Assembly (NCBI RefSeq): GCF_001659685.2
Contig: NZ_LXYE02000038.1
Span: 62,001-126,000 of the forward strand
Length of the DNA stretch: 64,000 bases
DNA from: Labilibacter marinus
GTDB lineage: Bacteria > Bacteroidota > Bacteroidia > Bacteroidales > Marinilabiliaceae
Direction: 5' to 3'
Made by a program: the position numbers and the translations under genes. Below, piece after piece: positions 5,179-10,548 of the stretch. The notes beneath the pieces were generated by a model. It ran no database searches. It was given only the letters and a program-made list of their open reading frames with translations, and was not told the origin of the DNA. Position 1 is the first letter of the stretch. Every line of letters begins with the position of its first letter.

Positions 5179-6480
5179 CTATGCCTCTTTTAAAAGGAAA
5201 GTCTTTAATTCTTCTAATGTAGCCTTAAGCTGAATATTCTTAGGCTCTCCTTTCATGAAGGCTTGTAGCCTTTCCGGTACATCTAATTTCCGTCCAATCA
5301 CGGGCTCTACCACTTCTGGAAATTTTGTTGGATGCGCGGTTTCTAAAAAGATTCCTTTTTCTCCATCCTTAAGCTTATTTTCTAAAGCCATAAAACCTGT
5401 AGCTCCATGCGGATCTAAAACATAGCCTTTGCTTTCATCAACACGCTTCACCCCTTCTCTAATCTGATCATCGGTATACGATATACCTTCCACCTTTTTA
5501 GTGACTACTTCGTGATTAGAATCATACAAATCCATCATACGAACAAAGTTACTAGGGTCACCTACATCCATGGCATTGGCAATGGTAGCTTTTGAAGGAG
5601 CAGGAATATATTCACCGGTTTCCAGATACTTAGGTACTATATCATTAATATTAGTAGCAGCAATGAATTTTTTCACGGGCAATCCCATTACCTGAGCTAC
5701 AAGTCCAGCAGTAATATTTCCAAAGTTTCCACTAGGTACACAATACACTATATCATCTTTAACACCTTGCTTGCGCAATTGAGCATAACCGTGATGATAA
5801 TATATGGACTGTGGTAACAAACGTGCTAAATTGATTGAATTAGCCGAGGTAAGAACCAACTTATCGTTTAACTCTTGATCCATGAAAGCCTCTTTTACCA
5901 TACGCTGGCAATCATCAAAGGTGCCATCAACCTCAATAGAAGTAATGTTTTCTCCTAAAGTGGTAAACTGCTTTTCTTGCACTTCGCTCACTAAACCTTT
6001 TGGATAAAGCACAAATACATTTATACCCGCAACCTTATAAAAACCATTGGCAACAGCACTTCCTGTATCTCCCGATGTAGCTACCAAAATATTGATCTCT
6101 TTATCCTGCCCTTGTACAAAATATGATAGAATACGTGCCATAAAACGTGCTCCTACATCTTTAAATGCCAATGTAGGACCATGAAATAGCTCTAAGGAAA
6201 AAATATCATCCGTCACCTTAACAGCCGGAATATCAAAACTCAAGGCATCATCCACTAAGGTTTTAAATTGATCTTCTGGAATATCTGGACAGAAAAAAGG
6301 TTTTAATACTTCAAAACCAATTTCTTGTAAGGACTTATTCTCAATATCTTCAAAAAACGAAGCATCTAATTGTGGAATTGCCTCAGGCATATATAAGCCT
6401 TTATCTGCAGCAAGTCCTCTTAATACAGCCTCTTTTAGGCTTACTTTTACATCTGGTGAATTAGTACTGTAAAATTGCAT
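5179..6480 (-). CDS. thrC: Threonine synthase
   Basis: PLP enzyme that converts O-phospho-L-homoserine to L-threonine, the last step of the pathway. The 433-residue length fits the longer ThrC class. It begins MQFYSTNSPDVKVSLKEAV and has the PLP-lysine motif TLAFKDVGARF with Lys about 107. The phosphate-binding ATSGDTGSAV segment follows, and PSGNFGNITAG appears later. It is the third gene of a threonine operon, after thrA and the ApgM-like gene, separated from the latter by 69 bases that hold a 10-bp inverted repeat. Regulation is probably shared with thrA through the upstream leader. Confidence 0.95.
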   Translation of the reverse strand: MQFYSTNSPDVKVSLKEAVLRGLAADKGLYMPEAIPQLDASFFEDIENKSLQEIGFEVLKPFFCPDIPEDQFKTLVDDALSFDIPAVKVTDDIFSLELFHGPTLAFKDVGARFMARILSYFVQGQDKEINILVATSGDTGSAVANGFYKVAGINVFVLYPKGLVSEVQEKQFTTLGENITSIEVDGTFDDCQRMVKEAFMDQELNDKLVLTSANSINLARLLPQSIYYHHGYAQLRKQGVKDDIVYCVPSGNFGNITAGLVAQVMGLPVKKFIAATNINDIVPKYLETGEYIPAPSKATIANAMDVGDPSNFVRMMDLYDSNHEVVTKKVEGISYTDDQIREGVKRVDESKGYVLDPHGATGFMALENKLKDGEKGIFLETAHPTKFPEVVEPVIGRKLDVPERLQAFMKGEPKNIQLKATLEELKTFLLKEA

Positions 6481-6549: not shown

Positions 6550-7755
6550 TTATTTAAGTAACTCTTGCATAAACTCAGGACCATAAATCGTTCCGAAAGC
6601 TCCTTCTTTAGCCGCAAACTCATTATATTCTTGAACTGAATCTGGTGCTTGCCCTGGTTTTTTGATAAAAAACGGAACAGCATCACGTGTATGTGTTTTT
6701 AGCGCACAAGGTGTTGGATGATCTGGCAACAATGCAATAGTCACCTCTTCGTCCATTTTCTCTACTTCCTCAATCACATATTTCACTACACGTTCGTCTA
6801 AGTATTCTATGGTTTTAGTTTTTAACACATGGTCACCTTCATGACCTGCTTCATCACTAGCCTCAATATGTAAAAATACGTATTGTTTTTCTTTTAAAGC
6901 CTTAATAGCAGCTTCAGCTTTCCCTTCATAATTGGTATCATACAATCCAGTAGAACCTTCCACGTGAACGCCATCTAAACCAGCGTATGCTCCTAATCCA
7001 TAAATCAGATCAACCGCTGAAATAACCACACCAGATTCAATACCATATAACTCTTTCATGGTTGGCATATCTGGTGTATTACCCGCTGACCAAGGCCATA
7101 TCATATCGGCAGCTGGCTTACCTGCTTCTCTTCTTTTAACATTTACAGGATGATCTTTTAATAACTCCTTAGATTTTAGCATTAAATCCACAACAATATC
7201 AATAGTAGCTTGAGCCGCCTCTTCCTTTGCACTTGGTAATACATCTTTTACTGGAGTTCCTGGAACATCATGAGGAGGTACACAGTTGATTTTATCACTC
7301 CCTCCATTCACTACCATCAAATGACGATAACTCACTCCTGCATGAAAATTTACTTTATCATTACCCAATTTTTCCTGAAGAAACTCCATGATTTCTTTAG
7401 CTTCTTCTGTAGAAATATGTCCCGCTGAGTGATTTAATACTTTCTCATCCTCAACAGATATTAAGTTACATCTAAAAACTAAATCATCTAAAGAGGTTTT
7501 AACGCCCATAGATGCTGCTTCCAGAACACCTCTTCCTCTGTAATACTTAGCGGCATCATAGCCCATTACCATCATATTGGCTACCTCGCTACCTGGATGT
7601 AATGAAGGAGGAACCGTATCTAATAAACCAGAAACACCCTCTGCACATAACTGATCGATGTAAGGTGTTTTGGCTGCCATTAATGGCGTTTTATCTCCTA
7701 ACTCTTTCAATGGCTCATCCGAAGCCCCATCTGCTAATATCACTAAATATTTCAT
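6550..7755 (-). CDS. ApgM-type phosphoglycerate mutase homologue, proposed homoserine kinase
   Basis: Member of the alkaline-phosphatase superfamily related to archaeal cofactor-independent phosphoglycerate mutase. Visible metal and catalytic motifs are LVILADGASDEPL at the N-terminus, HPGSEVANMMVMGYD (phospho-serine region), HIEASDEAGHEGD, and LLPDHPTPCALKTHTRDAVP near the C-terminus. A subfamily of these proteins, found between thrA and thrC in genomes lacking ThrB, has been proposed as the homoserine kinase. That is exactly the position here, and no GHMP-type thrB is seen in the window. I place the start at the ATG at 7755 (MKYLVILADG). The frame is open to a TTG at 7776, but that would leave only 7 bases after thrA. 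Biochemical activity is inferred from context. Confidence 0.85.
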   Translation of the reverse strand: MKYLVILADGASDEPLKELGDKTPLMAAKTPYIDQLCAEGVSGLLDTVPPSLHPGSEVANMMVMGYDAAKYYRGRGVLEAASMGVKTSLDDLVFRCNLISVEDEKVLNHSAGHISTEEAKEIMEFLQEKLGNDKVNFHAGVSYRHLMVVNGGSDKINCVPPHDVPGTPVKDVLPSAKEEAAQATIDIVVDLMLKSKELLKDHPVNVKRREAGKPAADMIWPWSAGNTPDMPTMKELYGIESGVVISAVDLIYGLGAYAGLDGVHVEGSTGLYDTNYEGKAEAAIKALKEKQYVFLHIEASDEAGHEGDHVLKTKTIEYLDERVVKYVIEEVEKMDEEVTIALLPDHPTPCALKTHTRDAVPFFIKKPGQAPDSVQEYNEFAAKEGAFGTIYGPEFMQELLK

Positions 7756-7783: not shown

Positions 7784-10219
7784 TTATTTATTTGCTACTT
7801 TAATAATATCGGCAAACACACCAGCTGCAGTAACTTCAGCTCCTGCGCCATATCCTTTAATTTGCATTGGATGCTCTTTGTAGTGCTCCGAAGTAATTAA
7901 AATAATATTATTGCTTCCTTCTAATTCAAAGAAAGGATGTTTGCTATCTACTTCGATAAAACCTACTTCGGCTTTACCATTTTCTAGTTTCGCTCCGTAT
8001 CTTAACTTTTTACCTTGTGCAACAAGCTCTTTACGTTGCTGTTCGAATACATCATCATGCTGTTTTATTTCCTCCATAAAGGTTTCTAAGCTATCTGCAT
8101 CCATATATTTTTGAGGTACAAACGGAACTACTTGAATATCGCTTTGCTCCATTGGATAACCTGATTCTCTAGCCAAAATTAAGATTTTACGAACTACATC
8201 TGTTCCACTTAAATCAAGTCTTGGATCTGGCTCACTGTATCCCATTTCTTTGGCTTCCTGAATAACTGCCGATAAAGGCTTGTCCGCATCCACTGTATTT
8301 ACGATATAGTTAAGTGTTCCAGAAAGAACAGCTTCCAACTTCAGAATCTTATCACCGCTCATCACCAAATTATTCAAGGGTGCAATAATTGGTAATCCTG
8401 CACCCACATTGGTTTCAAACAAAAATTTAACACCTTTGTTTAAAGCCGTTAATTTTAGTTTTTGATATAATTCATATGCTGATGAACTTGCAATTTTATT
8501 AGCTGTAACTACAGAAATATTAGACTCTAAAACACCTTGATAAATAGAAGCAATAGATTCGTTAGCAGTACAATCAACCATCACACTATTGGCTAAATTG
8601 TAATCCACAATACGCTCCTTAAAAGCTTGTAAATTGGCCGTTTCGCCTTTCTCCATTAAATCACCAATAATATTTTTACTATCCAAGCCTTGTGCATCGA
8701 GCAACATTTTACGGCTATTGGTAATTCCTGCAATTCTAATTTTTAGCTTATTTTCAGAAAATAATTTTTCTGACTGAGCATTAATTTTTTCAATTAACAT
8801 CTTTCCTACAGTACCAGTTCCTACTAAAAATAAATTAAGAACTGAAAATTGAGATAAGAAAAATGCCTCGTGTGCAGTATTCAGACCTTTTTTAAGATCT
8901 TTTTCTTTTACTACAAAAGAAATATTTAGCTCAGAAGCTCCTTGCGCTATAGCATAAATATTAATTCCGTTTTTACCCATGCTATTAAATAGCTTACCCG
9001 AAATACCCGTGGTATGCTTCATATTCTCACCCACAATGGCAATAACAGCCATATTTCTTTCAAGCGAAATATTGTTGATTTGATTCAGAGCAATCTCAGT
9101 TTCAAATTCGGCTTTCACTAGGTCTACCGCTTCTTCAGATACAGGAGAATCAATCACTAAACTAATTGAGTTCTCCGAAGATGCCTGAGAAATTAGAATT
9201 ACATTGATGTTTTTTTGTGCCATGGACTTAAACAATCTCATCGCAATACCTGTAGCTCCAATCATACCTAGCCCTTGAACGGTCAATAATGACACATTCT
9301 TAATGGACGAAATACCTTTAATCTTCTTACCAGTTATAGCTTCTTTCTGGTTATTAATTAAAGTTCCTTTAGCCTCAGGATTAAATGTATTCTTAATTAA
9401 AATAGGAATATTCTTTTTGTATACAGGTAAAATAGTTGGAGGGAATATTACTTTAGCACCAAAATGCGAAAGCTCCATAGCCTCAGAATAACTTAAACTA
9501 TCAATACAATAAGCTCTACTGATAATCCTTGGATCAGCAGTCATGAAACCATTTACATCAGTCCAAATTTCTAGCACCGACGCATCGTAAGTTGCTGCTA
9601 AAATAGCTGCGGTATAATCAGAACCTCCCCTACCTAAAGTTGTTACTTCGCCTTGTTTGTTAGAGGCAATAAATCCTGGAAACACAGAAACCTTACCTAA
9701 ATCACCTTTAATGGCATTTAGTTTCGATTCTGTCATTTCAAAATCAACAGAGTCACGACCAAACACTTCGTCTGTAGAAATAAAGTCTTTGGAGTCGTAC
9801 AACTTTGCATCATTAATATATTCCGCAATCATAAAAGATGAAATACGCTCTCCAAAACTGGAAATGATAGCATGACTTTTTACGGTCATTTCTTTTAGCA
9901 TATATACTCCTTTAATGATGGTACTTACCTCTTCAAAAAGTTGATCTACTTTAAATTTTATGGTTTGAGCTACATCCAAAGGAAATAACTCACTTATTAT
10001 TTTATAATGCTTTTCTTTTACTTCACTAGAAACATCAAAGCACTCTTGGTTTCCAACTTCGGCCAAATGTGCAGCTTTAATTAGCTCATCCGTAATTCCT
10101 CCTACAGCAGAAACCACCACTAAAACTTGTTCCTGTTGCGATTCAACAATCTTTTTAACCAATAATATGCTATCTGAGGAGCCTACTGATGTTCCTCCAA
10201 ATTTTAAAACCTTCATCAA
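7784..10219 (-). CDS. thrA: Bifunctional aspartokinase / homoserine dehydrogenase
   Basis: Fusion enzyme catalysing the first and third steps from aspartate to homoserine. The N-terminal aspartokinase (about 1-290) begins with KVLKFGGTSVGSSDS and carries TTLGRGGSDYTAAI. A central pair of ACT regulatory domains (about 300-450) is expected to bind threonine. The C-terminal homoserine dehydrogenase starts near residue 463 with the nucleotide-binding LVGTGTVGKMLIEKI and ends with GYGAGAEVTAAGVFADI. The 811 residues match E. coli ThrA-type length. It is the first structural gene of the operon, with about 190 bases between it and the Thr-rich leader ORF. Two adjacent Met codons (10219 and 10216) are alternative starts. 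Confidence 0.96.
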   Translation of the reverse strand: MMKVLKFGGTSVGSSDSILLVKKIVESQQEQVLVVVSAVGGITDELIKAAHLAEVGNQECFDVSSEVKEKHYKIISELFPLDVAQTIKFKVDQLFEEVSTIIKGVYMLKEMTVKSHAIISSFGERISSFMIAEYINDAKLYDSKDFISTDEVFGRDSVDFEMTESKLNAIKGDLGKVSVFPGFIASNKQGEVTTLGRGGSDYTAAILAATYDASVLEIWTDVNGFMTADPRIISRAYCIDSLSYSEAMELSHFGAKVIFPPTILPVYKKNIPILIKNTFNPEAKGTLINNQKEAITGKKIKGISSIKNVSLLTVQGLGMIGATGIAMRLFKSMAQKNINVILISQASSENSISLVIDSPVSEEAVDLVKAEFETEIALNQINNISLERNMAVIAIVGENMKHTTGISGKLFNSMGKNGINIYAIAQGASELNISFVVKEKDLKKGLNTAHEAFFLSQFSVLNLFLVGTGTVGKMLIEKINAQSEKLFSENKLKIRIAGITNSRKMLLDAQGLDSKNIIGDLMEKGETANLQAFKERIVDYNLANSVMVDCTANESIASIYQGVLESNISVVTANKIASSSAYELYQKLKLTALNKGVKFLFETNVGAGLPIIAPLNNLVMSGDKILKLEAVLSGTLNYIVNTVDADKPLSAVIQEAKEMGYSEPDPRLDLSGTDVVRKILILARESGYPMEQSDIQVVPFVPQKYMDADSLETFMEEIKQHDDVFEQQRKELVAQGKKLRYGAKLENGKAEVGFIEVDSKHPFFELEGSNNIILITSEHYKEHPMQIKGYGAGAEVTAAGVFADIIKVANK

Positions 10220-10362
10220 TACTTATTTTTGGATTTATTCACCGTTCTTCAACAGTGTCATCTGATTGAATTATTCTTTTCACTAATTGCTTACTTGTGA
10301 TCTTACAACCAAGCTTTGGATCAATACAAATTTCTAATAATAAAGTTTTAGAAAAAATCTCA

Positions 10363-10403
10363 GAAGGTGTTTATTATTATAAATAAAACCTCCCAATGGT
10401 AGG
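10363..10403 (-). promoter_or_regulatory. Candidate threonine attenuator: overlapping antiterminator and terminator hairpins
   Basis: In transcript sense, hairpin A (10403 down to 10389) pairs CCUACC with GGGAGG around AUU, with one mismatch. Hairpin B (10392 down to 10363) pairs GAGGU with ACCUUC, one U bulged, and continues into an A/U-rich stem (UUUAU with AUAAA). After B comes UGAGA and then six U residues at 10357-10352. A and B both need the GAGG at about 10392-10389, so they exclude each other. A ribosome finishing at the leader stop codon (10414) would cover the 5' arm of A and let B form; one stalled at Thr codons further upstream would not. The structures are drawn by eye and the regulatory logic is inference. 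Confidence 0.55.
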
Positions 10404-10413
10404 TATATAACAG

Positions 10414-10482
10414 CTAGACCCCCCTAGGGGTGAACGTAGAAGTAGTTGTTGTAATAATTGTATGGAGTAAATTACAAACCAT
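10414..10482 (-). CDS. thrL: thr operon leader peptide, 22 residues, Thr/Ile-rich
   Basis: Short ORF from an ATG at 10482 to a TAG at 10414. It starts MVCNLLH and continues TIITTTTSTFTPRGV, giving 7 Thr and 2 Ile in 22 codons. That composition matches the Thr/Ile-rich control peptide of the enterobacterial thrABC leader, although the sequence is otherwise unrelated. It lies between a good promoter match and thrA, about 35 bases after the predicted transcription start, and is followed by competing hairpins. The expected role is sensing charged tRNA-Thr and tRNA-Ile through ribosome stalling. Composition and position make chance unlikely. Translation has not been shown. Confidence 0.85.
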   Translation of the reverse strand: MVCNLLHTIITTTTSTFTPRGV

Positions 10483-10517
10483 AAGCTGTATATGCGTTTC
10501 TCTTATAAATTATAATG

Positions 10518-10548
10518 CAAAAATAGACATTTATTTTAAATCCCAAAA
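10518..10548 (-). promoter_or_regulatory. Promoter of the threonine operon
   Basis: On the minus strand there is a perfect Bacteroidota -7 element TATTTTTG (10525-10518, pattern TAnnTTTG). A TTTTG at 10548-10544 lies 18 bases upstream as the -33 element. The predicted start, near 10512, gives a leader of about 30 bases before the thrL-like ATG. Confidence 0.65.

Follow-up and report, generated by a model that had tools for sequence, protein, structure and literature searches.

How is the threonine operon of Labilibacter marinus, a member of the Bacteroidota, controlled from the region upstream of thrA? A sequence-only reading of the 64,000-nucleotide stretch analyzed here (the window) had placed a promoter, a 22-codon Thr-rich leader and two mutually exclusive hairpins, the second of them U-tailed, ahead of thrA-apgM-thrC, and had proposed that a ribosome at the leader stop codon decides which hairpin forms. 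Profile matches confirm all three genes, and a promoter, leader peptide, core hairpin and U-tailed hairpin all lie 5′ of thrA, the proposed homoserine kinase gene and thrC on the minus strand:

10518..10547 (minus strand), Bacteroidota-type promoter, TTTG at 10547-10544 and TATTTTTG at 10525-10518, recognized by sequence
10414..10482 (minus strand), leader peptide ORF encoding MVCNLLHTIITTTTSTFTPRGV, ATG at 10482 and TAG at 10416-10414
10418..10431 (minus strand), core hairpin ACCCC-UAGG-GGGGU, near-invariant in 61 leaders, in other orders and in another class
10403..10417 (minus strand), stretch behind the core hairpin, aligned with the U-rich tract of relatives by position-wise composition
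10388..10404 (minus strand), small hairpin ACCTACC/GGGAGGT, candidate antiterminator (-3.8 kcal/mol)
10352..10396 (minus strand), U-tailed hairpin, candidate intrinsic terminator, stem-loop 10396-10360 and U6 10357-10352
7784..10216 (minus strand), thrA, bifunctional aspartokinase/homoserine dehydrogenase I (NF006959, E 1e-301)
6550..7755 (minus strand), ApgM-type gene, proposed homoserine kinase (TIGR02535 and NF003242 above cut-off)
5179..6480 (minus strand), thrC, threonine synthase (TIGR00260 above cut-off)

The promoter was found as proposed, with the same arrangement in relatives from the genus, and the predicted transcription start is expected near 10512. The leader also stands as described: it is 22 amino acids long, 7 of its 22 codons encode Thr, and this run of Thr codons is far above chance. 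The core hairpin (10431-10418), which folds over the end of the leader, was absent from the sequence-only reading; the last Thr codon, ACC, forms the start of its 5′ arm, and its 3′ arm is followed immediately by the stop codon. The distance from the leader stop codon to thrA is about 197 nt, with the U-tailed hairpin (-10.7 kcal/mol) in between.

We examined how far this arrangement is conserved upstream of thrA, in 199 distinct regions that come almost entirely from Bacteroidales, plus other orders and another class. In 61 of the 199 regions, the leader's reading frame runs on into the ACCCC hairpin, or into a version differing by one letter, with ACC encoding Thr; the majority of the regions examined do not have a core-hairpin leader. 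The consensus, ACCCC-UU(A/G)G-GGGGU, is near-invariant and is opened by the last Thr codon, while the stop codon lies inside the hairpin loop in many leaders (for example, ACC CCT TAG GGGGT) and behind the hairpin in others (for example, ACC CCT TGG GGG GTC TAG). These leaders share a design to which the window's element conforms: a G+C hairpin of 4-5 bp before aspartokinase, whose 5′ arm includes the last Thr codon and which has the stop codon within it or immediately after it. The promoter, a leader beginning M(V/I)... and the ACCCC hairpin are retained in nine genomes of the genus, eight of which have 4-8 Thr codons. The exception, L005, has a single Thr codon and is the one genus member that retains the region and lacks the Thr run, an outcome that had been named in advance as a refutation of the proposed attenuator. 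In another class, the exact hairpin and Thr-rich leaders are found before aspartokinase in 12 genomes of one family. Other orders of the same class have the same design with altered hairpins (ACCCGTTAGGGT, ACCCCATAAGGGGT and ACCCTGTAAGGGGT), and family f117 has the hairpin ACGGGGTAACCCGT, whose arms are swapped from ACCCC/GGGGT to ACGGG/CCCGT (counted by hand anchoring). In a MAFFT alignment the core hairpin showed no formal covariation, since it hardly varies and the three arm-swapped sequences were misaligned.

Across the phylum, about half of the 25 matches to the exact hairpin pattern are at unrelated places, and a covariance model search was therefore used instead. The model has 46 positions and matches 51 of 392 genomes, nearly all with a single site; the best 30 matches all precede aspartokinase, part of these sites having been in the training set. 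Within the window's genome, the pattern CCCCTNNGGGG appears at only two other places, and the one inspected is not before an amino-acid operon, so another use of the core hairpin in this genome was rejected on that site. We also rejected an extended core-hairpin stem reaching into the U tract, which appears in a few genomes and is overall not more stable than shuffled sequences (mean z 0.06). The core hairpin is the most conserved part of the element.

Downstream of the core hairpin, the feature that persists among relatives is a U-rich stretch (59% U at +11 to +15 by position-wise composition), which then becomes C-rich and is G-poor at +11 to +15. Several groups share a CATAT motif there, present in 28 leaders versus about 7 expected and mostly located at +9 to +11. 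A hairpin followed by U-rich RNA at such a distance resembles a hairpin-stabilised RNA polymerase pause, and the stretch 10403..10417 is a candidate pause site that may have this function.

Several related leaders carry further elements. In families f131 (L226, L228-L238) and f113 (L286-L314), ACATATC / ACATATAATCC is strongly conserved behind the core hairpin, and in f113 this conserved stretch seems to base-pair with GGATACAT or GGGTATAT farther downstream, close to thrA. The Bacteroides-like thr leaders of L040, L047, L051-L053, L135, L144 and L157, which end in ..TLRG or ..TP(Q/R)G before the stop codon, have behind them a common second hairpin, GYGTTTCTNCGTGAAYCRC, with a UNCG-like loop. 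A thr leader was not found upstream of thrA in L014, L017, L029, L030, L034 and L039 (Prolixibacteraceae-type), where the frame just upstream of thrA ends in LGQGRETVR..NPELAQELE..I.EAITG, a conserved tail that resembles the end of RecA. Elsewhere in the window's genome, two related stretches (L085 281-620 and 1370-1580) contain words like CACTACCCCAAAGAGGT and GGAGCAAGAGC and are probably a dispersed repeat.

We quantified the leaders' codon content in each reading frame. Thr accounts for 24% of in-frame codons over whole leaders, compared to 3.5-3.8% in the other frames, and over the last 12 codons it makes up 32% in Bacteroidales, 35% in f131 and 50% in f113 (0-3.5% out of frame). The leaders draw on all four Thr codons (ACT 83, ACC 81, ACA 79 and ACG 23), indicating that the amino acid is kept and not a DNA word. 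The window's leader, a small ORF with many end-product codons directly before the operon, has relatives with frame-specific enrichment, and the proposed check of Thr codons upstream of related thrA genes came out in its favor. Because the leader amino acids are conserved while the Thr codons vary, ribosome-mediated threonine control is the best reading, and the earlier proposal of leader-peptide control before thrA is supported to that extent. In the E. coli thrL leader, Ile is enriched beside Thr. Families f131 and f113 share this likeness (Ile is 34% and 18% of the last 12 codons, respectively, and 0-1.5% out of frame in both families), but Bacteroidales do not (10.5%, not enriched).

Judged from comparative sequence evidence, the threonine leader is real and belongs to a type conserved across much of the Bacteroidota. 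We assign a probability of roughly 0.75 to the reading that the region 10547-10352 works as a threonine leader and governs thrA-hsk-thrC through ribosome-mediated attenuation. When threonyl-tRNA is sufficient, the ribosome would reach the stop codon and leave, and RNA polymerase would terminate after passing the second hairpin. Under threonine shortage, the ribosome would instead stall at the Thr codons, either within the core hairpin or right before it, leading to less termination. The core hairpin is the most likely sensing part, as the stalled ribosome would decide its formation, and together with the U-rich stretch it probably also pauses RNA polymerase, letting the ribosome catch up. For the coupling between the stall and the terminator, the small hairpin would be one possibility only.

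The same genome contains two other leaders with which this reading can be compared:

L283 1190-1290 (G000, contig C11), his leader upstream of hisG, peptide MTNITHHHGHHFYLL and stop, then the strong terminator GAGGGCTTACCGTATGGAAAGCCCTCTTTTTTTT
L284 1146-1300 (G000, contig C13), ilv leader upstream of ilvD, peptide MNNIFSLILINVILLVITKRT and stop, antiterminator GTGAGAA/TTCTCAC, terminator GGCCTTTCTCACATGTTGAGAAAGGCCTTTTTTTT

Like the thr leader, both encode peptides rich in the end product. Unlike the thr leader, they have strong U-tailed terminators (-18.2 and -19.5 kcal/mol, respectively) and an antiterminator pairing that depends on the ribosome's position. With such textbook terminators in the same genome, leader-peptide control is not exceptional here. 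Within the same class, family f110 (L255-L258, L281) has textbook thr attenuators, with a Thr-rich leader before thrA and strong U-tailed terminators. These differ from the window's type in that the terminator's 5′ arm, GGAGGAA, is complementary to the leader end CCTTCCTC (by eye) and in that there is no core hairpin at the stop codon; by its anatomy, the f110 leader is a second thr leader type in the phylum. A His leader before hisG in L220 (around 1380-1500; G510, family f111), with the peptide MKPVTHIHHHHSLPKR and the segments GGTAGGCT / AGCTTACC / GGTAGGCT, also resembles a textbook attenuator.

The strong U-tailed terminators of the f110 thr leader and of the his and ilv leaders support attenuation. 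The conservation of the window's own second hairpin is partial. All nine genus genomes have it, about 20-26 nt downstream of the core hairpin; its sequence differs considerably between them, and its stability exceeds that of dinucleotide shuffles in every one (mean z -3.2). It is followed by a strong U-tail in the window, a feature that is not constant within the genus and that outside the genus occurs at chance (13 found versus 9.0 expected, 0 versus 0.6, and 1 versus 2.2), and we rejected the U-tailed terminator as a general feature. Of the proposal that this hairpin is a terminator, the conserved structure stands within the genus; the U-tail is not conserved, and a simple terminator scan of the window does not list the hairpin. 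Among the relatives compared, neither a conserved antiterminator nor a conserved U-tail was found in this thr leader type. Several leaders are only about 60-75 nt before thrA and have no second hairpin; these close-lying leaders count against attenuation, as do the absence of a leader of this kind from the majority of thrA upstream regions, the unconserved U-tail, the single Thr codon of L005, the lack of an antiterminator above chance, and the lack of a ribosome-position effect at 12 nt. The candidate termination step differs from the textbook switch, and termination itself is putative; attenuation is likely.

An alternative that is possible, but that we doubt, is a classical attenuator, in which the small hairpin at 10404-10388 serves as antiterminator, its 5′ arm is covered by a ribosome standing at the stop codon, and transcription then ends at the U-tailed hairpin. 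The small and U-tailed hairpins share GGGAGGT and therefore exclude each other, as had been claimed; the core and U-tailed hairpins are not mutually exclusive and coexist at most ribosome positions. In five genus members, 10-12 nt separate the first base of the stop codon from the small hairpin's 5′ arm, and half of family f131 has a short, analogous hairpin pair. However, compared to shuffled linker sequence, the small hairpin is at chance both in the window (p = 0.49) and across the nine genus members (combined p = 0.33), and its analogue is not above chance in other Bacteroidales. We therefore rejected the mutually exclusive pair as a general feature, as it is at chance in the genus and outside that half of f131.

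We next consider the ribosome's effect on these structures. In equilibrium folding, the U-tailed hairpin forms with a probability of about 0.96-0.97 at all ribosome positions. We then took a transcript stopping short of the U-tailed hairpin's 3′ arm and computed how far the shared segment is paired. For a ribosome edge of 12 nt, this pairing is 0.79-0.80 wherever the ribosome stands, and it falls below 0.2 once the edge is at least 14 nt. The proposed masking of the 5′ arm by a ribosome at the stop codon thus requires an edge at least about 14 nt beyond the stop codon's first base and does not occur at 12 nt, so that the competing hairpin's response appears only with a wide footprint. In contrast, the same computation on the genome's his and ilv leaders shows the pairing changing from 0.61 to 0.00 and from 0.86 to 0.00, respectively, when a ribosome occupies the stop codon, which indicates that the method is able to detect a classical switch where one is present. 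As a whole, the two-hairpin switch was not upheld, with a small hairpin at chance, no ribosome-position effect at 12 nt and an unconserved U-tail.

More broadly, we tentatively suggest a phylum-wide threonine leader in which the short hairpin that has the last Thr codon and the stop codon inside it or next to it would itself be the switch, acting via polymerase pausing or Rho and without a classical terminator/antiterminator pair, with nearly the same hairpin sequence in at least two classes. A specifically Rho-dependent attenuation, in which the core hairpin and the leader ribosome would gate Rho loading on the poorly structured U/C-rich stretch behind and the window's U-tailed hairpin would be a local addition, is unlikely. 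The many leaders that lack a downstream hairpin or U-tail are consistent with it, as is the composition of that stretch, but the U-tailed hairpins in the window and in family f110 argue against it. It is quite unlikely that the leader instead acts on the translation or stability of the thrA message and not on transcription termination. The short distance between the core hairpin's end and thrA in several genomes (only 57-75 nt), and a structure that extends toward the gene in family f113, would fit such an action; the U-tailed hairpin within the window's leader-to-thrA gap and the genome's own his and ilv leaders, which are transcriptional by anatomy, do not. Finally, the chance that a functionless Thr-rich ORF and hairpins arose in AT-rich DNA is practically nil, as the ordinary folding energies obtained for most of the stretches tested here are outweighed by conservation across genus, order and class, by frame-specific Thr enrichment and by the placement of one site per genome before aspartokinase.

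Compared to known systems, the leader type stands apart. Rfam 15 gave no match in the window or its relatives, including RF00506 and RF01692, and the riboswitch and T-box models gave none at the gathering score, with only chance-level matches at E up to 10. Like thrL (RF00506), the window's leader combines a short Thr-rich peptide before thrA, a terminator-like hairpin before the operon and a probable ribosome-stalling signal. Unlike thrL, its last Thr codon is in the core hairpin, with the stop codon in or just behind it. Because the anatomy differs from the enterobacterial leader, an independent origin is plausible.

Attenuators in Bacteroidetes were reportedly predicted earlier, by Vitreschak et al. 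in 2004. In the literature searched, mostly outside subscription journals, we found no description of the stop-codon hairpin leader type. In Flavobacterium psychrophilum, structured 5′ regions have been described and leader-peptide attenuation has been proposed upstream of amino-acid operons (PMC9723704); the conserved elements presented in that article's main text include those of hisG and pheA, but not thrA, and a stop-codon core hairpin is not described there. These clues, together with the his and ilv leaders, contradict the notion that leader-peptide control is exceptional outside enterobacteria. Bacteroides thetaiotaomicron has small ORFs reminiscent of leader peptides (PMC7366714). The Bacteroid-trp RNA (RF01692) is, like the thr leader, a proposed cis-regulatory element of the Bacteroidota (PMC2864571), but its model does not match here. 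A survey of Rfam regulons, limited to four Rfam models, concluded that amino-acid attenuators may originate in gamma-proteobacteria, with few transfers (PMC3766115).

The principle of attenuation is already known; the thr leader type is conserved in Bacteroidota, yet absent from Rfam. Ribosome binding and promoters in this phylum differ from those of E. coli, and the presence of thr, his and ilv leaders in one genome suggests that members of the Bacteroidota use leader peptides widely. A hairpin this short and this close to invariant around a stop codon is unusual as a design; it can be tested and could become a new RNA family.
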